Source: Roseivirga echinicomitans
GTDB lineage: Bacteria; Bacteroidota; Bacteroidia; Cytophagales; Cyclobacteriaceae
Direction of reading: 5' to 3'
DNA: 64,000 bases
NCBI RefSeq assembly: GCF_001592935.1
Contig: NZ_LRDB01000050.1
Coordinates: 1-64,000, forward strand
Shown here: positions 41,459 through 63,900 of the stretch, in pieces
Layout of the letters: each line of letters starts with the position of its first letter
Position numbering within the stretch: the first letter of the stretch is position 1
Notes under the pieces: generated by a model
Database searches by the model: none
What the model was told of the DNA's origin: nothing
Seen by the model: only the letters and a program-made list of their open reading frames with translations
Program-made: the position numbers and the translations under genes

Positions 41459-41500
41459 TGCCGTCCGTCAGCGGACGGTAAAGTTCGGTGGCGAACTAAG
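41459..41500. repeat. Double-hairpin repeat upstream of first permease of array
   Basis: CCGTCCG and CGGACGG close a 4-base loop, followed after three bases by a second small hairpin (AGTTC, GGTGGC, GAACT). A decayed copy lies at 43993-44035, just after the same permease gene. Confidence 0.65.
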
Positions 41501-41548
41501 TGTAAAGCCGTTTTGATCTTAATTATCTTATATTCAGTGTTTTATTGC

Positions 41549-41564
41549 TGGCATTGAGATTGTT
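41549..41564 (+). promoter_or_regulatory. Candidate sigma-54 promoter of permease array
   Basis: TGGCAT, five bases, then TTGTT matches the -24/-12 consensus TGGCAC-N5-TTGCA, with GG and GT exactly ten bases apart. The start codon of the first permease is 26 bases further on. The nearby divergent sigma-54 activator makes the site plausible. A 16-base match of this quality can also occur by chance. Confidence 0.4.
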
Positions 41565-41589: not shown

Positions 41590-43986
41590 ATGCTCAACCT
41601 TAGAATCATCTTAAGAAGCCTGAGAAGAAATCTGATTTATACTTGGACTAACGTAATCGGGCTGGCCATCGCCTTTTTTTTTATTTTCCTGACGTCTATT
41701 TATTTGATTCATGAGTATACGTTTGACCAATCCTATCCTGACAGTGGCAAAATTCATAGACTAGTCACCACAAATTCTGCTTCATCAGTATCTGCCAACA
41801 GTTCTAGCTACCCTTTTATCCTATCATCAAGTTACCTCGAAAAGAATCCTTCAATAGCATCACTGGTTAGGGCCTACAATAATTCCTACGTTTCCGAATT
41901 AGTCAGACCAAGTGAAGAAAGGGAAAAAGCCTTCGAAGAGAAGGGTTTTTGGTATGTAGAAAGAGGCTTCTTGGAGATGTTTGATGTGAAAACCGTCAAC
42001 GGAGACTTGGGAATGTTTGATGTTCCTGGAACGGTTTTAATTAGTGAGTCTGTCCGTGAAAAGGTATTCGAGGGAGAGGAAGTTGTAGGAAAAAGGATGT
42101 TAGTGGGAGATGATGAGTTTGAGATCATTGGAGTTTATGAAGACTTCCCTTCTAATTCCTCCCTTGACCCAAGGTTTCTTATTTCGGTGGAAACTATGAA
42201 ATCGGACCCTGACTATAGTGACTACCTCACTAGTAGTGGCTATCACATGTTTAGCGTTTTTATGTCATTAAATGAGGGTACTGATATAGATGCCTTGGAA
42301 GTTCAGTTAATGCAACAGGATAAAGGTGACGAATCTAGGGGAGAAAAGTATGAGTTAGAATCTATTTTAGATTATCATTTCAGTGATTTGGATTCTACCG
42401 GATCATTTCGTCCAAAAGCGGATGAGCAGTTAGTGATTTGGTTAGTCGTGATTTCTATCTGTTTGCTCGCAGTGGCCATTGCTAATTTTGGCAATATTTC
42501 GTTGGCGGTTGCATTGGACAGGAGCAAAGAAATCGCTATTCATAAGATCATAGGAGCAAGAAAAATTCAATTGATCAAGAGGTCTTTGATTCAATCGTTA
42601 ATGTTGAGTTTTATTTCATTTATATGTGCTTTGATATTGATTGAGGTATTAATTCCAATTTATAGTCAATTTGTTGATAGAGAGTTAACTGTGGCTATTT
42701 TTGGTTTTAGAACATATTTGATTCTTTTGGCTTTTACCTCTATGGTGGGGCTTATCGCAGGAATATATCCCGCTTTAATTGTTTCCAGTTTTAAGGTATC
42801 TAGTCTGTTCAATTCTTTTAGTAGAAATAGCAGGTCAAAATCTCTTATCAGAAAGGGTTTATTGGCCTTTCAGTTTTTTATAGCCTTTGGTATTATTTCT
42901 GCCATGCTTTTCATGAATCGGCAGCTTGAGTTCATGCTATCCAAGGAGCCAGGGTATGATTTCACAAATACACTGGTGTTCCAATCAAGTTGGTTCCAAG
43001 GTAGGGATGAATCAACTATCCAAACATTCAAAGACCGCCTCATGGCGATGCCTGCCATTCAAGATATAGCGCTTTCAGATGAACACCCAATGAAGGCTTT
43101 GGGTGTTAACGATCTACAGAAACCAGGATTCAGGGATGGTTGGGAAAAAGTTGAAATATTGACTCTAGGGATCGATTGTCATTTCTTTGAGTTTTATGGA
43201 ATTGAGGAGAATTATGATGCTGATGTGATCTCCCTATTTTGTGGTGATAGCAAAGTGGCACTGCTTAACGAAACCGCCCTTAATACGCTTGAAAATGAGC
43301 CTATTGGCAAATTATTGCCTTCGTATTATGGTAAGTCAAAACCTGGGTATATCGTTCAGGAAGGTGCCGTCAGTGATTTCCATTTTACTTCGGTAAGTGA
43401 ACCAATTCCTGCAATGTTATTTGTGCCTTTAAGCTACTCAAATGGAAGGGCTCACTATTCTATTCGTTATTCTGACAATGTTAATTTAGGCGAACTTATT
43501 CAAACCATTCAGCAGATGTTCTGGGAGTTTGAGCCATCAAAACCTTTTGTGCTGAAAGTACTTGAAGAGGAGCACAAACGACTATACTCTTCAGAAACCA
43601 AGATGATGCAAATGACAAGTGTTTTGGGCGTTGGCGTTTGTCTAATCGCTTTTGCTGGAGTATTCGCAATGTCAATATTTTATGGTCGAGAAAGACTCAA
43701 AGAGATCAGCATTCGTAAAGTGCTTGGGGCAGGGGTTACACAACTTTTTGGACTTCAAAACCGAGTATTCGTAATTGCAATGCTGGTATCAATCGTCATC
43801 GCAGTTCCTCTTGTAATCAGCATAATTGATTCATGGATTTCTCAGTTTGCTTATAGAACTGATCAACCTTTATGGCTCTTTGGTGTAGCGGGTCTGATCA
43901 TGCTTGGTGCGACTCTTCTGTCTTCAGGTTGGTATTCGCTGAAAGTTGCAAAGTCCAACCCTGTCGATACACTTCGTGATTCATGA
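41590..43986 (+). CDS. MacB/FtsX-type permease, array member 1
   Basis: This 798-residue inner-membrane protein has the eight-helix double-FtsX layout. A first helix after RRNLIYTWTNVIGLAIAFF is followed by a periplasmic core, three helices, then another helix, a second core and three helices. It is the most divergent member of the array. The first coupling loop reads KEIAIHKIIGARKIQL, with His in place of the usual Arg, while the second is canonical (KEISIRKVLGAGVTQL). It ends NPVDTLRDS. It lies next to a sigma-54-like site and is flanked on both sides by copies of a double-hairpin repeat. Confidence 0.9.
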   Translation: MLNLRIILRSLRRNLIYTWTNVIGLAIAFFFIFLTSIYLIHEYTFDQSYPDSGKIHRLVTTNSASSVSANSSSYPFILSSSYLEKNPSIASLVRAYNNSYVSELVRPSEEREKAFEEKGFWYVERGFLEMFDVKTVNGDLGMFDVPGTVLISESVREKVFEGEEVVGKRMLVGDDEFEIIGVYEDFPSNSSLDPRFLISVETMKSDPDYSDYLTSSGYHMFSVFMSLNEGTDIDALEVQLMQQDKGDESRGEKYELESILDYHFSDLDSTGSFRPKADEQLVIWLVVISICLLAVAIANFGNISLAVALDRSKEIAIHKIIGARKIQLIKRSLIQSLMLSFISFICALILIEVLIPIYSQFVDRELTVAIFGFRTYLILLAFTSMVGLIAGIYPALIVSSFKVSSLFNSFSRNSRSKSLIRKGLLAFQFFIAFGIISAMLFMNRQLEFMLSKEPGYDFTNTLVFQSSWFQGRDESTIQTFKDRLMAMPAIQDIALSDEHPMKALGVNDLQKPGFRDGWEKVEILTLGIDCHFFEFYGIEENYDADVISLFCGDSKVALLNETALNTLENEPIGKLLPSYYGKSKPGYIVQEGAVSDFHFTSVSEPIPAMLFVPLSYSNGRAHYSIRYSDNVNLGELIQTIQQMFWEFEPSKPFVLKVLEEEHKRLYSSETKMMQMTSVLGVGVCLIAFAGVFAMSIFYGRERLKEISIRKVLGAGVTQLFGLQNRVFVIAMLVSIVIAVPLVISIIDSWISQFAYRTDQPLWLFGVAGLIMLGATLLSSGWYSLKVAKSNPVDTLRDS

Positions 43987-43992
43987 TCAAAT

Positions 43993-44035
43993 GAGCTGCC
44001 GTCCGCCAACGAACAGCAAAGTGCGATGGCGACCA
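43993..44035. repeat. Decayed copy of the double-hairpin repeat
   Basis: GCCGTCCGCCAACGAACAGC then AAAGTGCGATGGCGA parallels the element at 41459-41500 base for base along most of its length, but has lost much of its pairing. It begins 7 bases after the stop of array member 1. Confidence 0.55.
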
Positions 44036-44164
44036 ATGTAATAATGTTGATACTTCTTAACTTATTGATAAATAGTAGGTTAAGTTTGGTATGACAGTTG
44101 AATAGCGATTGGAAGTATTTACCGAATTATTTAATCACTCTAGTATTTAACTCAAATAGAATCC

Positions 44165-46537
44165 ATGTTATCATCCTTTTTTAGAATTGCATTTCGGTAC
44201 CTGGTAAAAAACAAGCTTTACTCTGTTCTTAATATATTCGGACTGACCGTGGGCTTGATCTGCTTTGTCATTCTAAGCTTATATGTAAAAGAGCAATTTG
44301 ATAAGGATTCGTATCACACTCATTCCGAAGAAATCTACAGGGTTTTAGTCGCCAGAGATGATTCTACTCAAGTTGAGCCCAATTGGGAAATGATGACGCA
44401 ATTTCCAATGGCGGAGTTGTTAAAAGAGGGCATTCCAGAGGTGGAAAACACAGTGAGGTTTGGTCAAACCTCTGAGTTGATTATTGAAGCGGATCAGCGA
44501 AAGTTTAAGATTCAGTCTCTTCATTTTGCTGACCCTTCTTTATTTGATGTATTTGATTTTGATGTGCTCGGGCAGTCTAAGCCACTAGATCAGCAAACGG
44601 TAAGTGAGCTCATTTTGGTAAAGTCTGAGGCAGAAAAACTCTTCGATTCTGCGGAAAATGCCATTAGTCAAACCATCAAATTGAATGGATATGGGATGTT
44701 TAAAGTAATTGGGGTGATTGATGATCTTGGTCAAGAAACTCACATGAATTTCAAATATATTCTTCCCATTGAGCAATCTGACAAAGCTTATGGCGATGAT
44801 AGAGGTTTTCGGAACTGGAATGTAATGACGGCATTTCCACTCTATGTTCAGATTGATAAAAACGCACAAGTGGCGGATATTGAGCGTAAAGCTAAAGCGC
44901 TACTTCAACCTCATATTAAGAACTCAAGTGTTCGTTTAGAGCCTGTGGGGGAAGTTTACTTCAGTAAATTATATTCATTTTTTAAGAAGACGGGCGATAA
45001 GCAATTTATAAGGTTGTACATGCTTGTTGGCCTGCTTATTCTATTTATTGCTTGTATTAACTACACCAATTTATCAACGGCCAGGTACCTAAAGAGGGCC
45101 AAAGAAGTGGGGATTAGAAAAACAGTAGGAGGATATAGAAGTCAGATTATTACCCAGTTTTTTATTGAGTCCATTGCGCTTGCCTTTATAGCTGTGGTGC
45201 TTTCGGTGTGCTTTACAGAAATACTTCTGCCTTCATTTAATGCTTTTGCGGGTGCTTCCATATTCATTGATTACCAGAGCCCTTTTACCTACTTATTTAT
45301 GGTATTGGCTGTTTTGGGAATTGGCATTTTTGCTGGGCTTTATCCCGCTGTTTTCCTTAGCCGTTTCAGTGCCACCCAAATCTTATCTGGAAGTGTAACC
45401 AAAGGAAAATCAGGTCTGTTTTTTAGAAATGTATTGGTGGTGGTTCAGTTCTTTATTTGCATCGGTCTATTTATTTCTACTAATGTTATCTACCAACAAT
45501 TTAAGCATTTAAAGCAATTGGATCTTGGTTTTGATAAGGAACAAGTGATTATGATTCCGCTCAATGACGAGGCAGTCAAACAATCATACAAAGCATTCAA
45601 AAATGAACTGAGCATGAATCCTTCCATCGAATGGATGACAGGAGCAGGGCCAAAAGTGTTTGGCGGACAGGCACAGTTTTATTTAGAAATAGAGGGCAGT
45701 GAAGATGTTACACCCGTTTCCATCTTCCCTGTTGATGAAGATTTCTTTCAAAAATTTGATATAAAACTGTTGGAAGGAAAGCTCTATCAACCAGAGCTGG
45801 GTGAGGAAGGGAATAACTTCTTGGTCGTGAATGAAGCCCTCGCCAAAGTGGGTGGATGGAAGATTGAAGATAAAATGGGTAAGAATGTCTTTAAGTATGA
45901 TGTGGGCGTACCGAATTTGGGTGGAGTAGTAGAAGATTTCGTGTTCTTCTCGGTGAAGGATGAAGTAACCCCAGCGGCATACCTTTATAAACCCAATGAT
46001 AATAATCTGGCTTATGTAAAGGTAAAGCCAGAAAATATGGAAGCCACAATTGCTTCTATTCAAGCTACTTATGAAAAGTTCGCCAATCTTTACCCTTTTG
46101 AATACTCGTTTTTAGATCAAGAATTTGCTGCACAATATGCGCAGGAGCAACGTTTGGCCAACATATTTACCACATTTAGTGGGGTGGCTATTTTAATCGC
46201 ACTGCTGGGTTTGTTTGGGCTTACCATATTCTTGGCCGAACAACGCCTGAAAGAATTCAGCATACGAAAAGTACTAGGGGCTTCAAACATCCATCTGATT
46301 TGGTTAATGAACAGTGGCATCAGCCGTATGCTGCTGATCAGCACCGCATTGGTCATTCCTTTGGTCTATTATTTCCTTGAAGACTGGATCAACACTTTTG
46401 CTTTTAGAATTACGCTTGATTGGTCTCTTTTTGCATTGCCTGTGGTCTTGGTAATGCTCTTTGCTTGGCTTACTACTCTTTACCAGTCCATTAATTCTGC
46501 CAGAAAAAACCCAGTGGACTCATTACGCAACGAATAA
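44165..46537 (+). CDS. MacB/FtsX-type permease, array member 2
   Basis: This 790-residue double-FtsX permease starts with RYLVKNKLYSVLNIFGLTVGL leading into helix 1. Coupling loops are KEVGIRKTVGGYRSQI and KEFSIRKVLGASNIHL; the first has VGG where others have VxGA. The helix-2 region LIACINYTNLSTARY is conserved with members 3 and 6. It ends NPVDSLRNE. Only 25 bases separate it from member 3, so these two are probably cotranscribed. Confidence 0.92.
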   Translation: MLSSFFRIAFRYLVKNKLYSVLNIFGLTVGLICFVILSLYVKEQFDKDSYHTHSEEIYRVLVARDDSTQVEPNWEMMTQFPMAELLKEGIPEVENTVRFGQTSELIIEADQRKFKIQSLHFADPSLFDVFDFDVLGQSKPLDQQTVSELILVKSEAEKLFDSAENAISQTIKLNGYGMFKVIGVIDDLGQETHMNFKYILPIEQSDKAYGDDRGFRNWNVMTAFPLYVQIDKNAQVADIERKAKALLQPHIKNSSVRLEPVGEVYFSKLYSFFKKTGDKQFIRLYMLVGLLILFIACINYTNLSTARYLKRAKEVGIRKTVGGYRSQIITQFFIESIALAFIAVVLSVCFTEILLPSFNAFAGASIFIDYQSPFTYLFMVLAVLGIGIFAGLYPAVFLSRFSATQILSGSVTKGKSGLFFRNVLVVVQFFICIGLFISTNVIYQQFKHLKQLDLGFDKEQVIMIPLNDEAVKQSYKAFKNELSMNPSIEWMTGAGPKVFGGQAQFYLEIEGSEDVTPVSIFPVDEDFFQKFDIKLLEGKLYQPELGEEGNNFLVVNEALAKVGGWKIEDKMGKNVFKYDVGVPNLGGVVEDFVFFSVKDEVTPAAYLYKPNDNNLAYVKVKPENMEATIASIQATYEKFANLYPFEYSFLDQEFAAQYAQEQRLANIFTTFSGVAILIALLGLFGLTIFLAEQRLKEFSIRKVLGASNIHLIWLMNSGISRMLLISTALVIPLVYYFLEDWINTFAFRITLDWSLFALPVVLVMLFAWLTTLYQSINSARKNPVDSLRNE

Positions 46538-46562
46538 ACCCAACCATTAAAACAACAAGGTC

Positions 46563-48956: not shown

Positions 48957-49083
48957 GATAATGCGCTAATGAATTAATGAGTGAAGGGATTAATGAAATA
49001 ATAAATTAATGAAACAAGGTTGGAAGTCCGAAGACCGGAGGCCCCTTTTAACCAATAACTAATACACGAATAACTAAATAGCC
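48957..49083. repeat. Three-part spacer repeat between array members 3 and 4
   Basis: Part A (TTAATGAA-rich, right after the stop) is followed by part B at 49018-49050 (GGTTGGAAGTCCGAAGACC) and part C (AACCAATAACTAATACACG) before the start. Part B here is shorter and more diverged than in later spacers. Confidence 0.7.
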
Positions 49084-51438
49084 ATGCTACGAAATTACAT
49101 CAAAGTCGCTTTTAGAAACCTGAGAAGAAACAAGCTCTATGCAAGTCTGAATATACTTGGTTTGAGTATTGGTTTGGGGTCATTCTTTATCATCTACCTC
49201 TTTCTTCAGAATGAATTGGCCTATGACCAGTTTCACGAAAAAAAGGACAGGATTTATAGGGTGAACCAAGCTAAAGATAGAGGTTATGGAGTGGAATTGA
49301 ATGGTGATTTAACTTCCGCTTTAGCACCTGCGGCCAAAGAAAGTATTCCAGAAATTGAAGCTTTTAGTCGAGTTTCAAATGATGAATTGGATATTGTAAT
49401 ACAGGAATCAATGGATTCACTAGATCATGTGAAAAGTCTAGCGGTAGACCCTGGTTTTATAGATTTTTTCGACCTTGATTTTTTGGTAGGAAGCAAGTCA
49501 TCATCGTTTAATACTCCTTTTTCTATCCTAATTTCTGAATCTCAAGCATTAAGGTATTATGGTTTAACTGATGTGCTGGGGAAAGTCATTGTAATTAATG
49601 AGAAGCGTTTATTGGTGGATGGTGTGTTCAAAGATTTACCGAATGCTACTTCATTAAAAGCAGACATAATTGTCCCTATTAAAACGGTAGATCTAGGAGC
49701 TAAATATATGGAAGGGCCTGGCTCTTGGCGAACAGGTTTAGGTCATCAAACTTATTTTTTAATTCGTAATGACGCATCCATATCAGGGATAGAGCAAAAA
49801 ATAAATGACCTTTATATTGAAAATTCCAAAAGAGAAGATGATGTACTGTCCTTAGAACCTTTGGCTAATGTTCATTATTCTTTGGACACAATAGACACGA
49901 TTCCTGAAAAGACAGATCGTCAATATGTATTCATATTTTCTGTCGTTGCTGGTTTTATCTTACTATGTGCTATTTTCAACTACATCAGTTTGGCGCTTTC
50001 TCAATCTATAGAAAGGGCAAAAGAAATAGGTATAAGAAAAGTAACAGGTGCTCGGAAAAGTCAATTATATAAGCAGTTCTTTTTCGAGTCTGTCATTCAT
50101 GTATTCTTCAGTTTTGTATTAGGTATTGTTTTAGTCGAATTCCTCTTGCCTTTGTTAGAAAACCTGATCGAAAGAAGAATAAGTGGTGGCGTATTTTCTC
50201 AGCCAGTACTACTGTTAAAAGGATTCGTATTCTCAATTATTGTTGCTCTACTTTGCTCTGTTTACCCTGCCTACCTGAGCACCAGAGTAAAAGTGGTAAA
50301 CATTTTAAAAGGGTCGAATAATAGCTTTTCATCCAAGAGACTAATCGGAGCTATTAGTGTGGTTCAAATTATTGTCTTCGTGGTTTTGGTATGCGTTTCT
50401 TTTACAGCGAATCGCCAAATGCATTTTATGCGAAATGAGAACCTCGGTTTCGACCGAGAAAACCAATTAGTCATTGATAAGCTACCTCGGGCTATTAAGT
50501 CAAAGTCAGTTGTGTTCAAAAATCAATTACTAAAAACCCCAGGGGTTCAATCGGCATCTTATTTTAGAAATTTACCAGGTACACAAATGTCGCAGGCAGG
50601 CTATGGTGATTACGATTTTATGTTTACTGATTATGGTGGTGACTTAGACTTTTTTGAAACCATGGGAATGACTATGCTTGACGGCAGGAATTATGTTGCT
50701 GCCGATACCGCGAGGGAGGATTTAGTGGTAATCAATGCTACGCTTGCCAAAAAATTAGGTTATGAAGAAGGCTTAGCAGCAGGGCAAGATTTGGTGATAA
50801 GGAATGAATCAAAAAGAATTATAGGAGTAGTCAACGATTTTCACTTTTTCTCAAAAAAGCAACCGATAGAGGCCAGTCGATTTTATGCTATTAGGTATAT
50901 ACCCAGCATGATCGTCCTAAAATTGAATGGTGAAAATTTGGGGCAAACCGTAGAGAGAATAAATGAGGTTTATCGGAAAGTATCAGGAGGGAGTGAAGCC
51001 TCTTTCTTTTTCTTAGATGACAAAATTGACGCACTCTACAAACAAGAAAACGTGATGATTACCATGCTGAACACCTTTACGGTAATAGCTGCTTTGGTCG
51101 CTTTTATAGGCTTGTTTGGTATTGCGGGTTATTCGGTAAAGCGCAGGTTAAAAGAAATGGGTATTCGCAAAGTGCTGGGAGCAGGCTTTTTGAGTATTCA
51201 GAAAACGCTTAATGTATCAAGCGTCTGGAAACTACTGATTGCTGTTGCTATTGCCGTACCAGTGGTCGTCTACTGGATGGACAATTGGCTCAGTTCTTTT
51301 GCTTATCGAATTGAAATGCCTGTGTTCCTAATCTTCGGAGCTATAGCCGTAGCCTCCTTGGTGATTTTCATTACTGTTTCTATTCATAGTGTTAAAGCCT
51401 ATTTGATTAACCCAGTGGAGATATTGAAGGATGAATAA
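49084..51438 (+). CDS. MacB/FtsX-type permease, array member 4 (mosaic subgroup)
   Basis: This 784-residue permease has predicted helices at about 19-42, 281-303, 336-357, 376-398, 421-443, 664-688, 715-735 and 745-770. The periplasmic cores lie between 43-280 and 444-660. Its first 60 residues differ from member 8 at one position and from member 9 at two, and its last 133 residues differ from member 8 at four. Both cores are strongly diverged from those paralogues. Coupling loops are KEIGIRKVTGARKSQL and KEMGIRKVLGAGFLSI, and the end is NPVEILKDE. This end-conserved, centre-variable pattern points to gene conversion or selection on the periplasmic parts. Confidence 0.93.
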   Translation: MLRNYIKVAFRNLRRNKLYASLNILGLSIGLGSFFIIYLFLQNELAYDQFHEKKDRIYRVNQAKDRGYGVELNGDLTSALAPAAKESIPEIEAFSRVSNDELDIVIQESMDSLDHVKSLAVDPGFIDFFDLDFLVGSKSSSFNTPFSILISESQALRYYGLTDVLGKVIVINEKRLLVDGVFKDLPNATSLKADIIVPIKTVDLGAKYMEGPGSWRTGLGHQTYFLIRNDASISGIEQKINDLYIENSKREDDVLSLEPLANVHYSLDTIDTIPEKTDRQYVFIFSVVAGFILLCAIFNYISLALSQSIERAKEIGIRKVTGARKSQLYKQFFFESVIHVFFSFVLGIVLVEFLLPLLENLIERRISGGVFSQPVLLLKGFVFSIIVALLCSVYPAYLSTRVKVVNILKGSNNSFSSKRLIGAISVVQIIVFVVLVCVSFTANRQMHFMRNENLGFDRENQLVIDKLPRAIKSKSVVFKNQLLKTPGVQSASYFRNLPGTQMSQAGYGDYDFMFTDYGGDLDFFETMGMTMLDGRNYVAADTAREDLVVINATLAKKLGYEEGLAAGQDLVIRNESKRIIGVVNDFHFFSKKQPIEASRFYAIRYIPSMIVLKLNGENLGQTVERINEVYRKVSGGSEASFFFLDDKIDALYKQENVMITMLNTFTVIAALVAFIGLFGIAGYSVKRRLKEMGIRKVLGAGFLSIQKTLNVSSVWKLLIAVAIAVPVVVYWMDNWLSSFAYRIEMPVFLIFGAIAVASLVIFITVSIHSVKAYLINPVEILKDE

Positions 51439-51593
51439 ATAATGAATTAAGGAGGCAATGAATTAAGGAATTAATGAGACAGTGAATTAACGAAGGAATG
51501 AAACAAGGTTGGAAGACCGAAGATGGAAGTCAGAAGTGGGCTTTCGTTTTCACCAATGACCAATGACCAATGACCAATAAACCATAACGACTG
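51439..51593. repeat. Three-part spacer repeat between array members 4 and 5
   Basis: A: AATGAATTAAGGAGG-type tract. B at 51506-51540: GGTTGGAAGACCGAAGATGG continuing to CAGAAGTGG. C: three tandem copies of CCAATGA followed by CCAATAA, ending 12 bases before the start codon. Confidence 0.8.
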
Positions 51594-53945: not shown

Positions 53946-54075
53946 ACCAATGAAATAATGAGAGAGGGGATTAATGAATAAATGAATTAATGAAATAAGG
54001 TTGGGAGACCGAAGACGGGAGTCAGAAGTGGATTCTCATTTTCACCAATGACTAATTAACTAATACACCAATATT
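53946..54075. repeat. Three-part spacer repeat between array members 5 and 6
   Basis: A: AATGAATAAATGAATTAATG. B at 53998-54031: GGTTGGGAGACCGAAGACGG to CAGAAGTGG. C: ACCAATGACTAATTAACTAA, then TACACCAAT before the start codon. Confidence 0.8.
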
Positions 54076-56466: not shown

Positions 56467-56628
56467 GCTAATGAAACAATGAAAAATGGGATGAATGAAA
56501 TAATGAAGGAATGAGACAATGAATTAATGGAAGAAGGCTAGAAGACCGAAGACGGTAGTCAGAAGCGGGTTTTCGTTTTCTCCAATGACCAATGACCAAT
56601 AAACTAATACACCAATAACCAAAGAGCT
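56467..56628. repeat. Three-part spacer repeat between array members 6 and 7
   Basis: A: AATGAAACAATGAAAAATGG and further ATGA-rich units. B at 56535-56570: GCTAGAAGACCGAAGACGG to CAGAAGCGGG. C: CCAATGA, CCAATGA, CCAATAA, then ACTAATACACCAATAACC. Confidence 0.8.
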
Positions 56629-58995
56629 ATGCTAAAGAACTACATCACCACCACGCTAAGAGGAATAAAGAGAAACAAGGTCTTTACATTGATTAACCTG
56701 ACAGGTCTTTCAGTGGCCATGGCCTGTTTTATTTTGGTTGGACTCTATGTACGGTATGAGCTTTCCTATGATCAATTCCATGAGGAGGTAGAAGATATTC
56801 ATTTGGTTAAAATGAAGAAGACCGAACGTTTTGGAGGCTCTTACGATCCATTTTTGCCACCCATGTTGGGCAAGTTGATCAAAGACGGAACCCCAGGGTT
56901 GGAAGAGGTAACTACCACTGTAGCCGGAGCGGGAGGTATGTATGTTGTTAAAAATGGGACAGACTACATACAAGAGAAGTATTATACTATAGAAGCCTCT
57001 TTCTTCAATGTTTTTACATTTCCGATTCTTTACGGAGATAAGTCTAATTTATTTGACGATCCAAATTCAGTTGTGATTTCGAGAGAAATGGCCCTAAAGT
57101 ACTTTGATGTAGAAAATGCAATTGGAGAAACACTTTCTGTGGATGGTAAAGGTGATTTTAGAGTAACAGCCGTTCTTAAAGATTTCCCAAAAAACTCTCA
57201 GTTCCAACCTCATTTTTCTTTCTCATTGAACGATAAAGAGAGTCTAGATTCGTGGGGTTACAACACATTCTTTATTTACATAAAAACACTACCTAACAGT
57301 GATCTCAGTGAGATAAGAAAACGAATCGCTACTATATATAACAGTAACAAACCCGAGGATGCAATGTATGAGGGGAGCGAGGCAGAGTTAGGTTCTTTTG
57401 CAAATTCATATTGGCAATTATCAGGCAGTGGAGCATCATTGAATAACCGCGATAGAGGATTGGGGGCAAATAAGGACGTCATTTATTTGTGTTCAGGCTT
57501 GGCTATTCTTCTGCTTTTTATTGCCTTATCCAATTATGTAAATATGGCGACTGCTAAAGCCATGGAAAGGGCCAAAGAAGTAGGGATTCGTAAAGTGAAT
57601 GGGGCTACTCAGAATCAGTTAATTAAACAGTTTTTGGGTGAAACGCTCTTTTTCGCCTTGCTCTGTTTGGTGGTGGCCGTTATTATGGTAGAAATCCTTT
57701 TGCCTTCGGTATCCCAAATTATGGGCATCAGCCTGAAGATGGACTATGAAGACATTACCATTTTAGGCTACTTATTGGCCTATGCATTGTTCTGTGGTCT
57801 TTTGGCTGGTATTTATCCAGCGGTACTATTGTCTCGTTTCAACCCGGTGAAAGCACTAAAAGGGCAGAAACAGCAAGGTCATTCTCGTTTTTCTCATCGC
57901 AGTATTTTGCTCTTTTTTCAGTTCACCATTTCAGCTTTTATGATCATTGTGCTTTTGGTGGCCAATAAGCAAATCAATCATTACATCAACTTTGACCTTG
58001 GCTTTAATAAAGAAAGGGTGGTCAGCATTCGCATGACAAAGGAAATGTCTGAGAGACCTCAGGTATTTATGCAAGAGGTAAAGAATATTAGTGGGGTTGA
58101 AGGGGTTACAACGGGGCCACTTCCCGGAGGTGCTTTCGGTTTTAATACATTAGAATTTGAAGGAAAGACTTTTAAAAATGTCCCTCGGGTTGAGACTGAT
58201 GAGAGTTTCATCACAATGCTTGAAATTCCATTGCTGGCCGGCAGAAATTTCGACCCTGAAATTACATCTGATTTTGATAATGCAATCATAATTAATGAAG
58301 CCTTAGCCAAGAAGTTGGAATTGGAGGATCCAGTAGGGGCAACGCTGATATTTGAAGGGAGTACTAAAAGAGTGATAGGCTTGATCAAGGATTTCCTCAT
58401 TACGGGTTCTATGTCGACAGCTGGAGATCTGATGTTAACACCGCTACTCAGTGGAAGGGTCAATAATCTATTGATCAAGGTGAACGCTCAGAACATGGCC
58501 AGCACCTTAGGGCAGATTGATGCCATTTGGGATCAGTTTGATTATAAGGACGCTTATCAATATCAGTTTTTAGATGACGCATATGAGGCCAAGCTAAGTG
58601 AATTGCAACGCCTTACTTTGATTATTAACGGGGTTACTACTGCCATTGTGGTGATTTCACTCTTTGGGCTATTCTCTTTGGTTGCCTTTCAAACTTCACA
58701 ACGCATTAAGGAAATTGGCATTCGAAAAGTGTTAGGAGCCACTGCAAATAACATCCTCTTTATTTTAGCTAAACCTTATGCTTGGTTGATTCTTTTATCG
58801 TCTCTAGTGTCCATACCATTGGCCTATTACTTTATGGGCAACGCACTCAATCAATACCCGAACAGGATTGATTTGGACGCGTCATTTGGAGTCATTACAG
58901 TGATCAGTATTCTCGGTTTTTCAGCACTGGTGTTACTGAGTAGGGCGCTTTCAACCATTAGAAACAATCCAGTAGATATTTTGAGGAACGAATAA
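56629..58995 (+). CDS. MacB/FtsX-type permease, array member 7
   Basis: This 788-residue permease starts MLKNYITTTLRGIKRNKVFT. Coupling loops are KEVGIRKVNGATQNQL and KEIGIRKVLGATANNI. Helix 2 (IALSNYVNMATAKAM) lacks the cysteine seen in most members. The first periplasmic core contains a Gly-rich stretch (TTVAGAGGMYVVKNG). It ends NPVDILRNE. It is the last member before the two closely related mosaic-subgroup genes. Confidence 0.92.
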   Translation: MLKNYITTTLRGIKRNKVFTLINLTGLSVAMACFILVGLYVRYELSYDQFHEEVEDIHLVKMKKTERFGGSYDPFLPPMLGKLIKDGTPGLEEVTTTVAGAGGMYVVKNGTDYIQEKYYTIEASFFNVFTFPILYGDKSNLFDDPNSVVISREMALKYFDVENAIGETLSVDGKGDFRVTAVLKDFPKNSQFQPHFSFSLNDKESLDSWGYNTFFIYIKTLPNSDLSEIRKRIATIYNSNKPEDAMYEGSEAELGSFANSYWQLSGSGASLNNRDRGLGANKDVIYLCSGLAILLLFIALSNYVNMATAKAMERAKEVGIRKVNGATQNQLIKQFLGETLFFALLCLVVAVIMVEILLPSVSQIMGISLKMDYEDITILGYLLAYALFCGLLAGIYPAVLLSRFNPVKALKGQKQQGHSRFSHRSILLFFQFTISAFMIIVLLVANKQINHYINFDLGFNKERVVSIRMTKEMSERPQVFMQEVKNISGVEGVTTGPLPGGAFGFNTLEFEGKTFKNVPRVETDESFITMLEIPLLAGRNFDPEITSDFDNAIIINEALAKKLELEDPVGATLIFEGSTKRVIGLIKDFLITGSMSTAGDLMLTPLLSGRVNNLLIKVNAQNMASTLGQIDAIWDQFDYKDAYQYQFLDDAYEAKLSELQRLTLIINGVTTAIVVISLFGLFSLVAFQTSQRIKEIGIRKVLGATANNILFILAKPYAWLILLSSLVSIPLAYYFMGNALNQYPNRIDLDASFGVITVISILGFSALVLLSRALSTIRNNPVDILRNE

Positions 58996-59086
58996 GTCGG
59001 TCAATAGTCAATGGACATTGGTCAATAGTTTGAATTGGCTGATTCACCAATGACCAATGACCAATTAACTAATAAACCAATACGCT
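58996..59086. repeat. Heptamer spacer between array members 7 and 8
   Basis: This spacer lacks the GAAGACCGAAGAC part. It has GGTCAATAGTCAATGGACAT then GGTCAATAG, followed by CCAATGA, CCAATGA, CCAATTAACTAATAAACCAA. The first block is roughly the complement of the second, giving an extended dyad. Confidence 0.75.
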
Positions 59087-61429
59087 ATGCTACGAAACTA
59101 CATCAAAGTTGCTTTTAGAAACCTGAGAAGAAATAAGCTCTATGCAAGCCTGAACATCATTGGGCTGAGTATCGGTTTGGGCTCATTCTTTATCATTTAC
59201 CTATTTCTTCAGAATGAATTGGCCTATGACCAGTTTCATGAAAAGAAGGATAGGATTTACAGGGTAGTAGCGATTGCTGAAAGCGATTTTGGGGTAGAGA
59301 AACAAGCCAGTATGAGCCATGCCTTTTCTCAAAAGTTTATTGAAGGGATACCGGGTATCGAAGCTTTTAGCAAAGTGGATAGAAATTCTGCTGTATTCAA
59401 TTTTCATGAGGTAACGGAGAACGGTACTCCAACAGAGACCTTAATTGTTGATCGTGATTTCTTGAATTTCTTTACGATCCACTTTATGTATGGTAACACT
59501 AAGAGTGTATTTAAATCTCCCAATTCCATGCTGATTAGCGAATCAATGGCCTTGAAGCAATATGGTACAACTGATGTTTTGGGTAAAACTGTCGGCTATT
59601 ATAAAGACAGTTACATTATTACTGGACTGTTTCATGACCTGCCGAAGAGTTCATCTATTAAGGCTGATGTTATTGTTCTTAATGAAAAAATGAATGCTCG
59701 CCATGAGGTAGGGGCTTGGGGAGTAAGAATGAATAACCTGCAAGCCTATATGCTGTTGAACGAAAATACCGAGGTAGCTGATGTTGAAAATAAACTCACT
59801 GAACTTTATTTAGAAAAGAATAAGTACGGGAAGGGAAGTGAACTGAGCTTACAGTCCATTTCCGATGTTCATTATTCATTAGATGTAAAAGATGAGGTGA
59901 AGGAAAAAACTGACCGTCAGTACGTTTCGATTTTTGCATTTGTAGCCATCTTCATTTTAGCAAGCTCCATTTTTAACTACATCAGTTTATCAGTCTCCCA
60001 GTCTATTGAAAGAGCAAAAGAGATCGGAGTTCGAAAAGTGGCAGGCGCCAGCAGCAGAGAGCTACGCAAACAATTTATAATTGAGTCATTATTGCATGTC
60101 CTTATAAGCTTTGTACTTTCCATGATTTTGGTGGAATTACTTATTCCTCAACTAGAAGCTTTAGTAGAAAGAGATTTAGGCATCAGCGTTTTAGCCCAGC
60201 CTATTCTTTTGCTCCAAGGCATTATGTTCGCCTTGTTTATTGCCCTTCTTTGCTCGTTCTATCCCACTTATTTGAGCACAAAACTAAAGGTGGTTCAAGT
60301 TTTTAAAAATGGCAAAGGTGTTTTTTCTTCCCAACGATTGATCGGAGCAATTGGCATTTTTCAAATTGTGGTTTTTGTAGTGCTTATCTGTGTTTCGGTC
60401 ACTGCTAACCGACAAATGCGCTTTATGCGGAACGAGAATTTAGGCTTCGATAAAGATCAACTACTGGTATTGGAACACATGCCCTATCAAAATAGAGTCG
60501 AGCCCAAAAATGAATTACTGAAAATCCCTGGTGTAAAATCTATCAGTAGTGGTGGTCAACTTCCAAATGATGTTGTACCTACCATGAGTTTTAAAGAGTT
60601 TGATTTTGATTTCAGTTTCTTCGAGATAGATGAAGACTACGTTCAAACCATGGGTATGACTTTGTTAGGTGGGCGAACTTTTTTACCCGAAGATGCCGAT
60701 TCGGCTAGATTGGTATTGATCAATACCACTGCCGCACATAAAATAGGCTATGATGAGATTACAGCGGTTGGTAAGATGCTAGGCTCGGGCTCGTCAGCCT
60801 ATAAAATTATTGGTGTAGTTAGTGATTTTCACTTTGCTTCCAAAAAAGAACTTATAGCGCCAGTAGTATTTAGACCTATTACCATTGGCTTCAGTGGTCA
60901 GTTCATCGTTAAACTTGACGGTGCAAATTGGGCTTCAACCACCAAAGAAGTTTTAGAGTACTACAACATAATCCCAGACGTCTATAGGCCTTCGTATTTC
61001 TTTTTCGAAGATCGAATTGACGCCCAATACAGACAAGAAAACGTGATGATTACTATGCTAAACACTTTTACAGTGATAGCAGCTTTGGTGGCTTTTATTG
61101 GCTTGTTCGGTATTGCAGGCTATTCGGTGAAACGCAGGCTAAAGGAAATGGGCATTCGCAAAGTACTCGGTGCAGGCTTCATGAGTATTCAGAAAACACT
61201 TAATGTTTCAAGTGTATGGAAACTACTGATTGCGGTGGCTATTGCTGTACCCGTAGTGGTGTATTGGATGGACAATTGGCTGAGTTCTTTTGCTTATCGC
61301 ATTGAAATGCCTGTCTTCCTAATCTTCGGAGCCATTGCCGTTGCCTCCATCGTGATTTTCATTACTGTTTCCATTCACAGCATAAAAGCCTATTTGATTA
61401 ACCCAGTGGAGATATTGAAAGACGAATGA
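59087..61429 (+). CDS. MacB/FtsX-type permease, array member 8 (mosaic subgroup)
   Basis: This 780-residue permease is a close paralogue of members 4 and 9 at both ends only. The last 133 residues are about 97% and 95% identical to those of members 4 and 9 by direct comparison, and the DNA there includes long stretches identical even at third codon positions. Coupling loops are KEIGVRKVAGASSREL and KEMGIRKVLGAGFMSI. Cores between helices 1-2 and 5-6 are divergent. It ends NPVEILKDE. Confidence 0.93.
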   Translation: MLRNYIKVAFRNLRRNKLYASLNIIGLSIGLGSFFIIYLFLQNELAYDQFHEKKDRIYRVVAIAESDFGVEKQASMSHAFSQKFIEGIPGIEAFSKVDRNSAVFNFHEVTENGTPTETLIVDRDFLNFFTIHFMYGNTKSVFKSPNSMLISESMALKQYGTTDVLGKTVGYYKDSYIITGLFHDLPKSSSIKADVIVLNEKMNARHEVGAWGVRMNNLQAYMLLNENTEVADVENKLTELYLEKNKYGKGSELSLQSISDVHYSLDVKDEVKEKTDRQYVSIFAFVAIFILASSIFNYISLSVSQSIERAKEIGVRKVAGASSRELRKQFIIESLLHVLISFVLSMILVELLIPQLEALVERDLGISVLAQPILLLQGIMFALFIALLCSFYPTYLSTKLKVVQVFKNGKGVFSSQRLIGAIGIFQIVVFVVLICVSVTANRQMRFMRNENLGFDKDQLLVLEHMPYQNRVEPKNELLKIPGVKSISSGGQLPNDVVPTMSFKEFDFDFSFFEIDEDYVQTMGMTLLGGRTFLPEDADSARLVLINTTAAHKIGYDEITAVGKMLGSGSSAYKIIGVVSDFHFASKKELIAPVVFRPITIGFSGQFIVKLDGANWASTTKEVLEYYNIIPDVYRPSYFFFEDRIDAQYRQENVMITMLNTFTVIAALVAFIGLFGIAGYSVKRRLKEMGIRKVLGAGFMSIQKTLNVSSVWKLLIAVAIAVPVVVYWMDNWLSSFAYRIEMPVFLIFGAIAVASIVIFITVSIHSIKAYLINPVEILKDE

Positions 61430-61557
61430 AGGAATGATAGAAGGGATTAATGAAATAAGTTTAGAAGACCGAAGATGGATTCAGAAGTGGTTTTTCGTTT
61501 TCACTAATGACTAATGACTAATGACAAATGACAAATTAACTAATAAACCAACACGCT
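61430..61557. repeat. Three-part spacer repeat between array members 8 and 9
   Basis: A: AAGGGATTAATGAAATAAG. B at 61458-61490: TTTAGAAGACCGAAGATGG to CAGAAGTGG. C: CTAATGACTAATGACTAATG then ACAAATGACAAATTAACTAA, ending in a short stretch before the start that member 8 also has. Confidence 0.8.
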
Positions 61558-63900
61558 ATGCTACGAAACTACATCAAAGTCGCTTTTAGAAACCTGAGAA
61601 GAAACAAGCTCTATGCAGGCCTGAACATCCTTGGACTGAGTATCGGTTTGGGGTCATTCTTTATCATCTATCTCTTTCTTCAGAATGAATTGGCCTATGA
61701 TCAGTTTCATGAAAAGAAAGACAGGATTTTCAGGGTAGTTCAGGTTAGCGAAATAGATGGTGGAGAGGAAAAGACGAGTAGTCTTAGCTCTGCTTTTGGC
61801 CCAGTGGCAAAGGATGAAATCCCCGAAATAGAAGCTTTCAGTAGGCTCGATAACTCCCAAGTGAGTATAGTAGTCAAAGGAGTTCAAGATTCTATCGGAC
61901 GCGTACACAGTGCGGCCATTGACCGAGGATTTTTAGAATTCTTCGACCTTGATTTTGTCGCTGGCGATGTATCAGGGGCACTAAAGACTCCCAACTCTAT
62001 GCTAATGAATGAATCAAAAGCCATTCAATACTTTGGCAGTGCTAATGAGGCGCTTGGCAAGGTGGTTAAAGTGGGGCGTGTTGACTTGATCATTGATGGA
62101 GTATATAAAGACCTCCCAAATACCACCTCGATCAAAGCTGAAATCATTGCGCTACTCACCACTGTGAATGCTTGGAGAGGGGAGAATGGCTTTAATCAGT
62201 GGAGGGCCAGCTATGGAGACCAAACTTATTTTTTACTCAATAAAGGCGATCAAATAACAGAAGTGGAATCAAAACTCAATGACTTATATCAGGCCAATGC
62301 TAAGATTGAGAGTATGTCTTTGACGCTTCAGCCATTAGCTGATGTACATTTCTCTTTGGATGTAACAGGACGAGTAACAGAAAAGACGGATCGTCAGTAC
62401 ATTTTTATTTTCACACTAGTTGCTGCATTTATACTCATCTGCTCTGTGTTTAACTATATAAGTCTTGCACTTTCTCAATCTATTGAGAGAACTAAAGAAA
62501 TTGGTGTAAGGAAGGTATCGGGTGCTAGGAATAAAGAGCTTTACACTCAATTTTTGATTGAGTCTGTCATTCAGGTGTTTTTCAGTTTCTTGGCCGCTAT
62601 CATTTTGGTAGAATTATTACTTCCGCAACTGGAAAGCCTTATCGATAGAAGTTTGGCCATTAGTGTTTTTGAACAACCAGAGTTTTTATTCAAGGGCTTA
62701 ATATTTTCTTTGATTATTGCCTGTCTGTGTGCTCTTTATCCTGCCTATTTAAGCACAAGGCTTAATGTGGTGAAGATTTTCAAAAACACTTCTAGTAATT
62801 TCTCAACAAAGAGGCTTATAGGTGTTGTCAGCATTTTCCAAATCGTAGTATTCATCGTGCTTATTTGTGTTTCATTTACGGCCAATCGTCAGATGGATTT
62901 TATGCGAAATGAAAACCTTGGTTTTGATAAAGACCAACAACTGATTTTGCACTTATCTCGAAAAGTAGGTGCGGAAGTATTTAAAAATGAGTTTCAATCT
63001 CTACCTGGAGTCAAGTCGGCTAGTTTAACAAGCTCAATACCAAGTAGGGTATCAGGATGGGGTAAATTCAGTGATTATGACTTTGGCTTTCATAATTTCG
63101 ATATTGACGAGGATTACCTTCAGACTTTAGGCATGTCTTTGATTGAAGGAAGAAATTTTGTTTTGGAAGATACCGATTCCTCAAGGGTAGTGATGATAAA
63201 TGAAACGGCTGTTCAAAAACTTGGCTTCAAAGGCTCAGCAATAGGAAAAACAATAAGACGAAATCAGGAGGACTTACGGATTGTAGGTGTTGTGAATGAT
63301 TTCCATTTTGTGTCTAAAAAAGAATCCGTTGAAGCTACATTATTTGAGCTTTTAGATAGAAATGCTTCGCTACTCGTCTTAAAGTTGGATAATGAAAGCA
63401 CCGTGTCCGTAGTGGATAACATCAAAGCCAAGTACTCAGACTTAACCAGTGGGGACCAAGCCAATTTCTTCTTTCTAGAAGACCAAATCAACGCCCAATA
63501 CAAACAAGAAAATGTAATGATTACCATGCTCAACACTTTTACAGTGATTGCAGCTTTGGTGGCTTTTATCGGCCTGTTCGGTATTGCAGGTTATTCAGTA
63601 AAACGTAGGTTAAAGGAAATGGGCATTCGTAAAGTGCTGGGAGCCGGTTTCTTCAGTATTCAAAAGGTGCTGAATGTTTCAAGTGTATGGAAACTACTGA
63701 TTGCGGTTATCATTTCAGTGCCAGTGGTTGTCTATTGGATGGACAATTGGCTTAGTTCTTTTGCTTATCGCATTGAAATGCCTGTCTTCCTAATCTTCGG
63801 AGCCATTGCCGTTGCCTCTGTTGTGATTTTCATTACTGTTTCCATTCACAGCATAAAAGCTTACTTAATTAACCCAGTGGAGATATTGAAAGACGAATGA
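61558..63900 (+). CDS. MacB/FtsX-type permease, array member 9 (mosaic subgroup)
   Basis: This 780-residue permease differs from member 4 at only Ser21Gly and Tyr58Phe in the first 60 residues. Coupling loops are KEIGVRKVSGARNKEL and KEMGIRKVLGAGFFSI. It differs from member 8 at six of the last 133 positions. The first core contains VSEIDGGEEKTSSLSSAFG, unrelated to the equivalent part of member 8. It ends NPVEILKDE. It is the last complete gene in the window, but the spacer after it repeats the pattern seen before each earlier member. Confidence 0.93.
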   Translation: MLRNYIKVAFRNLRRNKLYAGLNILGLSIGLGSFFIIYLFLQNELAYDQFHEKKDRIFRVVQVSEIDGGEEKTSSLSSAFGPVAKDEIPEIEAFSRLDNSQVSIVVKGVQDSIGRVHSAAIDRGFLEFFDLDFVAGDVSGALKTPNSMLMNESKAIQYFGSANEALGKVVKVGRVDLIIDGVYKDLPNTTSIKAEIIALLTTVNAWRGENGFNQWRASYGDQTYFLLNKGDQITEVESKLNDLYQANAKIESMSLTLQPLADVHFSLDVTGRVTEKTDRQYIFIFTLVAAFILICSVFNYISLALSQSIERTKEIGVRKVSGARNKELYTQFLIESVIQVFFSFLAAIILVELLLPQLESLIDRSLAISVFEQPEFLFKGLIFSLIIACLCALYPAYLSTRLNVVKIFKNTSSNFSTKRLIGVVSIFQIVVFIVLICVSFTANRQMDFMRNENLGFDKDQQLILHLSRKVGAEVFKNEFQSLPGVKSASLTSSIPSRVSGWGKFSDYDFGFHNFDIDEDYLQTLGMSLIEGRNFVLEDTDSSRVVMINETAVQKLGFKGSAIGKTIRRNQEDLRIVGVVNDFHFVSKKESVEATLFELLDRNASLLVLKLDNESTVSVVDNIKAKYSDLTSGDQANFFFLEDQINAQYKQENVMITMLNTFTVIAALVAFIGLFGIAGYSVKRRLKEMGIRKVLGAGFFSIQKVLNVSSVWKLLIAVIISVPVVVYWMDNWLSSFAYRIEMPVFLIFGAIAVASVVIFITVSIHSIKAYLINPVEILKDE

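Follow-up and report, generated by a model that had tools for sequence, protein, structure and literature searches.

Large paralogous permease families without ATPase genes are known as acidobacterial duplicated orphan permeases (ADOP). In the darobactin exporter DarBCD, a double permease is combined with a separate DarD-type ATPase (NF038007) and an HlyD-type protein, and there is one permease per ATPase. The RAST label "ADOP" is reported for 28 genes of one Dyadobacter genome and 33 of another (PMC11573002), while one Acidobacteriota MAG is reported to have 102 "acidobacterial orphan permeases" (PMC10564751). YbbP is described as a fused, two-halved permease with two bound YbbA ATPases (PMC5985334, PMC12646458). 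The sugar-importer ATPases MsmX and MsmK are described as serving several importers each (PMC7658222, PMC4519317), and BceAB-BceRS as a flux-sensing system in which an FtsX-type permease acts with a kinase without a dedicated sensing domain (PMC10314905). In the open-licence literature, we found no motor or role assigned to the large duplicated "orphan" permease families of Bacteroidota and Acidobacteriota, and nothing on FtsX-like permeases with sigma-54 in Bacteroidetes or on tandem FtsX/MacB arrays in Bacteroidota.

The permeases studied here resemble each of these systems in part. Nine of the ten in the window, i.e. the whole 64,000-nt stretch of DNA analysed, match nearly the whole ADOP profile (TIGR03434) and have two FtsX units per chain as ADOP does, while on the permease at 56629 the best stretch covers profile positions 261-803. 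The cut-off is 622 bits and the ten score 170-291 bits, so that they are not formal ADOP members. Like ADOP, 70 of the 71 double permeases in this genome lack an adjacent cognate ATPase gene, yet relatives of the family are found near a candidate ATPase in other genomes (see below) and, unlike what the label implies, an ATPase that probably acts in trans and a link to sigma-54 regulation can be named. Scores against DarB (NF038008) were 69-193 bits (best 192.6), below the cut-off of 700, and the dozens of permeases contrast with the single one per ATPase in DarB/DarD. Fold and coupling loop are similar to those of MacAB-TolC and YbbAP, and candidate tripartite partners are encoded at a separate hub. 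However, MacB carries the ATPase within the permease chain, whereas a Pfam search detected no ABC domain inside the chains of the window permeases, and YbbP has 10 transmembrane (TM) helices, two linkers and a dedicated ATPase; the array permeases have 8 TM helices and lack an ATPase gene of their own. MsmX and MsmK serve type I importers, whereas the present case involves about 70 type VII exporter-like permeases and an MFP-TolC hub. As in BceS, the six histidine kinases considered below have two TM helices but lack a large sensing domain outside the cytoplasm; unlike in BceAB-BceRS, the response regulator is sigma-54-dependent and the candidate partners are of the Gram-negative tripartite type.

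A tandem array of ten permease genes

Nine co-directional ORFs of 780-798 aa occupy positions 41590-63900 (Table 1). The original prediction of nine full-length double-FtsX permeases in tandem on one strand agrees with the ORF list and the Pfam matches to the exact coordinates, as far as the window goes; the array total is ten, a further member of 784 aa at 64009-66363, just beyond the window, having been overlooked. Unrelated genes on the opposite strand follow. Each of the nine ORFs contains two FtsX and one or two MacB_PCD stretches, with both families above the Pfam cut-offs; the FtsX core and the MacB-type periplasmic domain (PF02687, PF12704) exceeded the cut-off in all ten window permeases, and no internal stops were present within the permease matches of the nine ORFs. 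Also as predicted, the profile search found no ABC_tran match in the window, the nearest on the same contig being at 106128. Neither of the findings that would have spoken against the prediction was made: the array has no cognate ATPase gene next to it, and all its members are intact. The three best paralogues of permease 1 in this genome (G000) are 25.6-28.3% identical to it, and permeases 4, 8 and 9 are sisters with near-identical ends.

Table 1. Features of the window, in order of position.
Feature	Position	Strand	Basis or remark
PadR-type regulator	157..504	+	type associated with prefix-domain class of orphan permeases
PadR-linked orphan permease, permease prefix domain 2, 879 aa	491..3130	+	profile matches
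Partner histidine kinase, 454 aa	38026..39390	-	two TM helices, very short loop
Sigma-54-dependent response regulator, 458 aa	39371..40747	-	divergent from array; 62-63% identical to hub regulator
Left copy of imperfect 43-nt direct repeat flanking permease 1	41459..41501	+	sequence comparison
Sigma-54 (-24/-12)-like motif TGGCATTGAGATTG	41549..41562	+	41 bases upstream of first permease
Array permease 1, double FtsX, 798 aa	41590..43986	+	ORF list, Pfam
Right copy of 43-nt repeat around permease 1	43997..44039	+	copies 77% identical
Second sigma-54-like motif TGGTATGACAGTTG	44087..44100	+	before permease 2; same site leads G004 and G006 arrays
Array permease 2, double FtsX, 790 aa	44165..46537	+	ORF list, Pfam, same-locus comparison
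Array permease 3, double FtsX, 797 aa	46563..48956	+	ORF list, Pfam, same-locus comparison
Spacer with array-type repeated sequence	48957..49083		between permeases 3 and 4
Array permease 4, double FtsX, 784 aa	49084..51438	+	Pfam, paralogue comparison
Array permease 5, double FtsX, 783 aa	51594..53945	+	ORF list, Pfam, same-locus comparison
Array permease 6, double FtsX, 796 aa	54076..56466	+	ORF list, Pfam, same-locus comparison
Array permease 7, double FtsX, 788 aa	56629..58995	+	ORF list, Pfam, same-locus comparison
Array permease 8, double FtsX, 780 aa	59087..61429	+	Pfam, paralogue comparison
Array permease 9, double FtsX, 780 aa	61558..63900	+	Pfam; protein modelled with AlphaFold2

The whole genome encodes 71 double FtsX/MacB permeases in 43 clusters, and a cognate ATPase adjoins one of them; for this count, two permeases less than 5 kb from other ABC matches were set aside as unrelated by size and distance alone. 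The PadR-linked permease predicted at 491 was recovered with its PadR gene upstream. A PadR-like gene lies directly upstream of 19 of the 22 double permeases of at least 855 aa in this genome, versus none of the 49 shorter ones. Arrays of double FtsX/MacB permeases are widespread in Bacteroidota, a breadth that had been passed over in the original prediction, as had the second ATPase described below.

A candidate motor at a permease-less hub

The candidate motor is an ATPase, ATP1. Its gene is part of a hub at C12:141002-147742, on a different contig from the array, in which genes for a histidine kinase and a sigma-54 response regulator are divergent from those for a membrane-fusion protein (MFP), ATP1 and TolC. 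The HlyD-type MFP and the OEP-type channel adjoin ATP1, there is no permease gene, and we found no account of such a permease-less MFP-ATP1-TolC hub in the open-licence literature. The NCBIfam queries for ATPases were fragments of 143-149 aa, and the best match of the 148-aa ATP1 fragment was to DarD, with 195.7 bits against a cut-off of 375. Judged from sequence, this DarD-like protein is probably the missing motor of the array.

To examine the linkage in relatives, we selected 40 hub neighbourhoods, for long contigs and spread, from 90 relatives with the hub MFP. In 20 of these, with ATP1 62-76% identical, double-FtsX permeases are located on the hub strand no farther than 9.5 kb from the MFP, while the other 20, including all 8 from the same genus, have no permease on that strand within this distance; the latter 20 also include 16 of the 17 neighbourhoods whose MFP is at least 48% identical. 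Among 80 named permease loci (33 of which, chosen by hand, are the named rows of alignment A2), ATP1 was present in 13 and ATP2, the second ATPase, in 12.

Across 109 genomes drawn from the phylum, the permease (E <= 1e-120) was found in 25 of the 29 genomes with ATP1 (E <= 1e-85) and in none of the 80 without (Fisher p = 8e-21, uncorrected for kinship). A negative here means that no match was listed; the two scans agreed in draw size and in their handles. One of them scored at most nine candidates per genome, and only presence or absence was therefore used. In the four ATP1-type genomes with the permease below threshold, the ATPases were 58-60% identical in three and 73% in G231. A smaller co-occurrence test covered hand-picked genomes (15 and 13), and G085 has ATP1 (75%) and one permease match but no hub MFP at E <= 1e-20. 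Context, co-occurrence and the coupling loops described below give good support to the part of the original prediction in which many permeases share a distant ATPase, and we consider it likely that the ten permeases are energised in trans, chiefly by ATP1, with the hub supplying the MFP and TolC.

Other candidate ATPases

A possible, though rather unlikely, alternative is that ATP2 (C1:256290) powers a sizeable part of the permeases, or that an ATP1-ATP2 heterodimer fits the unequal permease halves. ATP2 is 50-55% identical to ATP1, is located beside the only permease of the genome with an adjacent cognate ATPase, and belongs to a clade of its own with 17 sequences (support 0.999). It is found downstream of permeases at several named loci, often ahead of TolC, and a second ATPase match at 50-55% was present in all five hub-bearing genomes tested. 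Since ATP2 co-occurs too, ATP1 is perhaps not the sole motor. Against this, the catalytic motifs are intact in both proteins, so that neither is an obvious dead half, and the two coupling loops bear nearly the same motif, with no sign of two different partners; in the tree, the ATP1 clade is weakly supported (0.635) and ATP1 and ATP2 together received 0.93.

It is far less probable that some other trans-acting type VII ATPase, for instance the LolD/MacB-like C22:315368 or LolD at C2:287985, drives the array while the hub ATPase serves something else. Neither has a permease gene alongside, and C22:315368 is 47% identical to ATP1, but the ATPase that adjoins permeases in relatives is ATP1. Moreover, seven of the hand-picked relatives, whose best ATPase was only 45-48% identical (E <= 1e-60) and a putative orthologue of C22:315368, had no array-type permease at E <= 1e-70. 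The likelier clients of C22:315368 would be the single MacB-type permeases of the genome (411-461 aa).

Coupling loops and fold

By domains, fold and coupling loop, the permeases are members of the type VII ABC (MacB/LolCDE) superfamily. A cytoplasmic coupling loop is present between TM2 and TM3, with an equivalent in the second half, and its motif aligns with ERTREIGIRMAVGA of E. coli MacB (alignment shown for half 1). The 33 named rows of A2 were retrieved by a pattern taken from the second coupling loop, and loop conservation in that alignment is therefore biased. We relied instead on 68 orphan permeases of this genome found via other domains, among which the two coupling loops were the most conserved windows (0.74 and 0.84, versus 0.35 for the periplasmic domains); the loops of these orphans match those of the ATPase-linked permease. 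The AlphaFold2 model of permease 9 (pLDDT 84.6, pTM 0.79) matched YbbAP (E 3.3e-17), MacB (1.4e-13) and LolE (6.3e-10) in Foldseek, as well as LolCDE and BceAB, with modest TM-scores over the whole query chain, 0.44 at best.

The high conservation of the ATPase-coupling loops, together with the co-occurrence with ATP1 and its proximity to permeases of the same family in relatives, makes it very improbable that the permeases are orphans in the strict sense implied by the ADOP name and serve as ATPase-independent sensors or scaffolds in the membrane, for all that nearly every one lacks an adjacent ATPase gene. Heterodimers between different permeases, as originally envisaged, were rejected as a required idea, because each chain already contains the two FtsX halves together with the two periplasmic domains.

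Two-component systems and sigma-54 motifs

The sigma-54 regulator next to the array has 12 matches in the genome including itself, of which six form the closest group. The other five members are 45-63% identical over the full length, while the next-best regulator is 42% identical over part of it; a first comparison was confined to loci retrieved for permeases or ATPases, and the later whole-genome search kept the same six. A related kinase is located close to all six. Five of the six regulators have orphan double permeases as neighbours, numbering 10, 4, 2, 1 and at least 1, and the sixth is at the hub. Hydropathy plots of the kinases displayed two N-terminal TM helices and a short loop in five cases, while the C13 kinase gave merged peaks that are consistent with this pattern. 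An 11-member array is present on C51 and may belong to the C13 regulator pair. A seventh, more distant regulator (38%) lies beside the permease C1:664988, where the sigma-54 motif is absent.

To quantify the motif, we counted TGGYAY-N4/5-TTG from -160 to +90 around annotated starts, which are too early for some genes (hub MFP, C13 permease). It was present at 31 of 41 hub MFP genes versus 3 of 322 remaining ORFs of the same loci, and at the first permease in the array of this genome and in all ten orthologous arrays of congeners, the 11 representing one locus in 11 species rather than 11 independent events. Elsewhere in these arrays it preceded 10 of 90 inner permeases and 1 of 72 other ORFs, and we rejected the motif as a promoter of every permease. 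The strict motif was absent before the first permease in three of this genome's five permease loci with a linked regulator, and none of the 34 response regulator genes had it; in the retrieved loci of this genome it occurred at 5 of 76 permeases and 10 of 422 other ORFs. Comparison across relatives supports a sigma-54-type motif for the hub operons and for the leader of this array only.

Proposed mechanism

We propose that the array genes encode interchangeable permeases of the type VII (MacB/LolCDE/YbbP) superfamily, each a single chain with two halves, 8 TM helices, two periplasmic domains and two cytoplasmic coupling loops. Each would engage two ATPase subunits in trans, chiefly ATP1, with ATP2 as a possible second motor, and the hub would also provide the membrane-fusion protein and the outer-membrane channel. 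One tripartite pump chassis could thereby accept many permeases that differ in periplasmic specificity, and the array and the hub would be switched by paralogous two-component systems (short-loop kinase and sigma-54 regulator) through -24/-12 promoters. We infer physical pairing of ATP1 with the permeases and tripartite assembly from the sequences, and a role in efflux or detoxification.

The analysis thus names a candidate motor, predicted partners (MFP and TolC) and a predicted switch. If true, the "orphan" label is misleading for the Bacteroidota branch, and one ATPase would serve dozens of permeases, well beyond the shared-ATPase importers known to us, as a single engine for dozens of exchangeable export heads.

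Evolution of the array

Comparison of array size among relatives, as suggested in the original prediction, revealed 4 to at least 14 members at the same locus in different species, with shuffled order, open frames and purifying selection. Permease 1 is the best hit of one same-locus member each in G005, G008, G018 and G012, and of none in G004, G006, G007, G016, G003 and G002; the leaders in G004 and G006, where permease 1 is absent, contain one copy of the repeat that surrounds it here. Copy number and order change rapidly, some paralogues have homogenised ends and repeats lie around member 1, but it is highly improbable that the array arose chiefly as a side effect of tandem duplication and recombination, with little function for the individual copies. 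All members are open, dN/dS is low in 11 orthologue pairs (0.02-0.04 for the TM parts, 0.075 for PCD2), and seven of the ten members are old, with identities of just 25-36% to the best paralogues.

A broader joint reading, which we hold tentatively and at less than even confidence, is that one or two conserved ATPases and one MFP-TolC chassis energise about 70 different plug-in permeases, the tandem arrays being an evolving library. In this reading, the two unequal permease halves might even hold a mixed ATP1:ATP2 motor. Whole permease-plus-leader units of the sigma-54-controlled arrays would be gained, lost and shuffled, while the ends recombine and the periplasmic cores diversify. If so, these fast-changing arrays constitute a natural library of export specificities.

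Ends with at least 75% identity were observed in 6 of 461 within-array pairs over 11 arrays, with raised synonymous identity there in five of the six, and general gene conversion across the array was rejected on this low count. Spacers similar to that between permeases 3 and 4 precede permeases 5, 6, 7, 9 and 10, and permease 8 in the 3' part only. The spacer repeat was also rejected as a genome-wide element: a backward control pattern yielded 3 matches in the genome, and all 5 genomic occurrences of GAAGACCGAAGAYGG (at most one mismatch) are in the spacers of this array.

Permease array and census

The window covers the initial 64 kb of contig C49 in a 4.18-Mb draft genome, and its permease array was resolved into nine ORFs of 780-798 aa. 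Every ORF combines two matches to FtsX with one or two to the MacB periplasmic domain; both families exceed their Pfam cut-offs, and the permease domain matches contain no stops. A tenth permease follows, beyond which unrelated genes are located on the opposite strand. ORFs and Pfam matches thus confirmed the array of nine in the original prediction, the actual number being ten, and its claim that the window lacks an ABC ATPase was borne out by a domain search, which gave no such match in the 64 kb. For seven of the ten members, the best paralog within the genome was 25-36% identical, while three members (starting at 49084, 59087 and 61558) shared 57-61% identity. Direct and inverted repeats of the CCCCCAGCCCCCTT type flank the DUF559 gene between regulator and array and resemble a small mobile or REP-like element.

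Genome-wide there were 127 matches to MacB_PCD, the MacB-type periplasmic domain. An HMM built on the window permeases and run over loci fetched for MacB_PCD-type permeases identified 71 two-halved permeases, 69 of them full length, one split at a fetch boundary only and one cut by a contig end. These formed 43 clusters. The window array has 10 members and an array on contig C51 has 11; the other clusters are two of four, three of two and 36 permeases that stand singly. An adjacent cognate ATPase was found for 1 of the 71 (C1:257108, with C1:256290); two further permeases have an ABC match, taken to be unrelated, no more than 5 kb away. Two regulatory classes were distinguished, with a PadR-like gene directly upstream of 19 of the 22 permeases of at least 855 aa and of none of the 49 shorter ones. 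The C51 array begins at the contig end, and its missing start may correspond to contigs C13 (regulator pair and one permease) and C20 (two permeases).

Coordinates of features in the genome and in fetched loci (L numbers)
Location	Strand	Feature
Window 157-3130		PadR and prefix-domain permease, of the class of at least 855 aa
Window 3315-6317		1000-aa Sortilin/BNR-repeat protein adjoining the PadR permease
Window 40820-41200		DUF559 gene
Window 41590-63900	plus	Nine array permeases
64009-66363		Tenth array permease, 784 aa
C12:145577-146290		ATP1, hub ATPase
C1:256290		ATP2, second ATPase
C1:257108		Permease adjacent to ATP2
C1:664988		Permease adjoining the seventh regulator
L044:4291-7514		ATP2 ortholog beside its own double permease, sole such pair in the genome
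L057:1605-5124		Lone LolD/MacB-type ATPase (251 aa) after an 859-aa protein without Pfam match at E ≤ 0.001
L045:2-2239, L018:179-4120, L010:103-20000, L011:1-6712		C51 array and, on C13 and C20, its possible missing start

A candidate ATPase and its regulators

Among the lone type VII-like ATPases, ATP1 on contig C12 stood out. It is encoded in an operon, here called the hub, in the order HlyD-type MFP, ATPase and TolC-type channel. The operon contains no permease, and genes for a histidine kinase and a sigma-54 regulator are transcribed divergently from it. With a fragment of ATP1 as query, its best NCBIfam relative was DarD, at a score below the cut-off.

The window array is likewise divergent from a hub-type kinase and regulator pair. 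Twelve regulators in the genome matched that of the window at E ≤ 1e-20. The closest group comprised six, the window's own included, of which the other five were 45-63% identical to it over the full length; scores then dropped, the next being 42% identical and partial. A related kinase was located near all six, with two TM helices and a short loop in five of the kinases and the sixth consistent with this. Five of the six regulators adjoin double-FtsX permeases (10, 4, 2, 1 and, at a contig end, at least 1), and the sixth is that of the hub. A seventh regulator (38%) also adjoins a permease, and comparison of genome-wide match lists placed no MacB_PCD match close to the remaining five.

A -24/-12 form of sigma-54 promoters is TGGYAY-N4/5-TTG. 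Within -160 to +90 of the annotated start, this motif was found for 31 of 41 hub MFP genes (22/32 outside the genus). Of the unlabelled ORFs from these loci, 3 of 322 had it, as did none of 34 regulator genes. It was present near the first permease in all 11 orthologous arrays, near 10 of 90 inner permeases and near 1 of 72 other ORFs. In the hub of our genome, the motif lies about 50 bases ahead of the likelier, later start. This genome has five regulator-linked permease loci, and three of them lack the strict motif; overall, it occurred at 5/76 permeases and 10/422 other ORFs of the genome.

Linkage and co-occurrence in relatives

The hub MFP was present in 91 of 147 genomes (our own included), mostly in single copy, and we examined its neighborhood in 40 of the 90 others. 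ATP1 identity was 90-98% in the genus and 62-84% outside it. In 20 neighborhoods, the hub strand carried double-FtsX permeases no more than 9.5 kb from the MFP, their number ranging from one to at least four. They usually lie past the ATPase, and in one locus (L097) between MFP and ATPase. The other 20 had no such permease on the hub strand in that span, including all eight from the same genus and 16 of 17 with an MFP at least 48% identical. A recurrent order in named genomes was kinase, regulator, MFP, ATP1 and permeases, in some cases followed by ATP2 and TolC, as in Mucilaginibacter phyllosphaerae (L134), Hyunsoonleella pacifica (L146), Pedobacter cryoconitis (L174) and Mangrovivirga halotolerans (L162). 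Among 80 named permease loci, ATP1 was found in 13, ATP2 in 12 and either in 22, while 51 contained at least three full-length permeases. Similar permeases occurred in records named Aminicenantes, Ignavibacteriales and Melioribacteraceae (L181, L182, L184, L201), and those of L184 (Aminicenantes) have an MFP (39%) and an ATP1 of 72% identity nearby. In G008 (L074), a tandem pair of hub MFP genes precedes ATP1, which suggests that the adaptor can duplicate as well.

In 109 genomes of the phylum that were at least 95% complete, ATP1-type ATPases (E ≤ 1e-85) were present in 29 and permeases (E ≤ 1e-120) in 25, all within the 29 and none among the 80 without ATP1 (p = 8e-21, kinship ignored). The four with ATPase and no permease at this threshold were G166, G170 and G238 (ATPases 58-60% identical) and G231 (73%). 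In a smaller test of hand-picked genomes, seven without hub MFP had neither ATP1 nor permease, two had a 58-62% identical ATPase adjoining a single permease, G085 combined ATP1 with one permease, and the permease counts of three hub genomes were 12, 31 and 27.

The original prediction that the permeases share an ATPase encoded elsewhere is the best explanation of the data, now with a named candidate and partners. The analysis demonstrates anatomy, linkage, co-occurrence and motif enrichment, while ATPase binding, tripartite assembly and substrates are inferred.

Predicted coupling and structure

The closest families were ADOP, DarB/DarD, MacB and YbbAP, and the permeases scored below the curated cut-offs for ADOP and DarB. 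In MacB, the major coupling helix is described as lying between TM2 and TM3 (PMC5985334). The equivalent loops in the permeases read R-x-K-E-V/I-G-V/I-R-K-V-x-G-A, and the first was aligned by profile to ERTREIGIRMAVGA of MacB. Among 68 orphan permeases of the genome, the coupling-type loops were the most conserved parts (mean modal-residue frequencies of 0.74 and 0.84), with 0.35 for both periplasmic domains. An AlphaFold2 model of member 9 (pLDDT 84.6, pTM 0.79) had eight long TM-type helices and two periplasmic domains, and its best solved Foldseek matches included YbbAP, MacB, LolCDE and BceAB. YbbP is described as a fused, two-halved permease with two YbbA ATPases bound (PMC12646458). The array permeases are likewise fused and two-halved, and by analogy each would require a pair of ATPase subunits but no further permease.

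Array turnover and selection

At the same locus, ten congeners had 6, 7, 4, 7, 7, 9 and, where the contig or fetched piece ended, at least 9, 14, 14 and 14 permeases. In G004 and G006 the regulators were identical to that of the window after rounding, and the arrays contained 6 and 7 permeases of different order and make-up. Permease 1 is bounded by 43-nt imperfect direct repeats; both of these congeners lack it and have a single repeat copy in the leader, as expected from recombination. The first 40 and last ~145 residues of the three sister members were near-identical with raised fourfold-site identity, and the cores were old. Fourfold matches in a G016 pair were 60/70 in the ends and 34/99 in the core, and the G018 ortholog of the G016 core (71% identical) had only 19/52 in the ends. 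Only 6 of 461 within-array pairs showed such end-sharing. In 11 ortholog pairs, dN/dS was low (0.02-0.04) in the TM parts, the ratio for PCD1 being non-computable because one pair was saturated, and dN was two- to five-fold higher in the periplasmic domains than in the TM parts.
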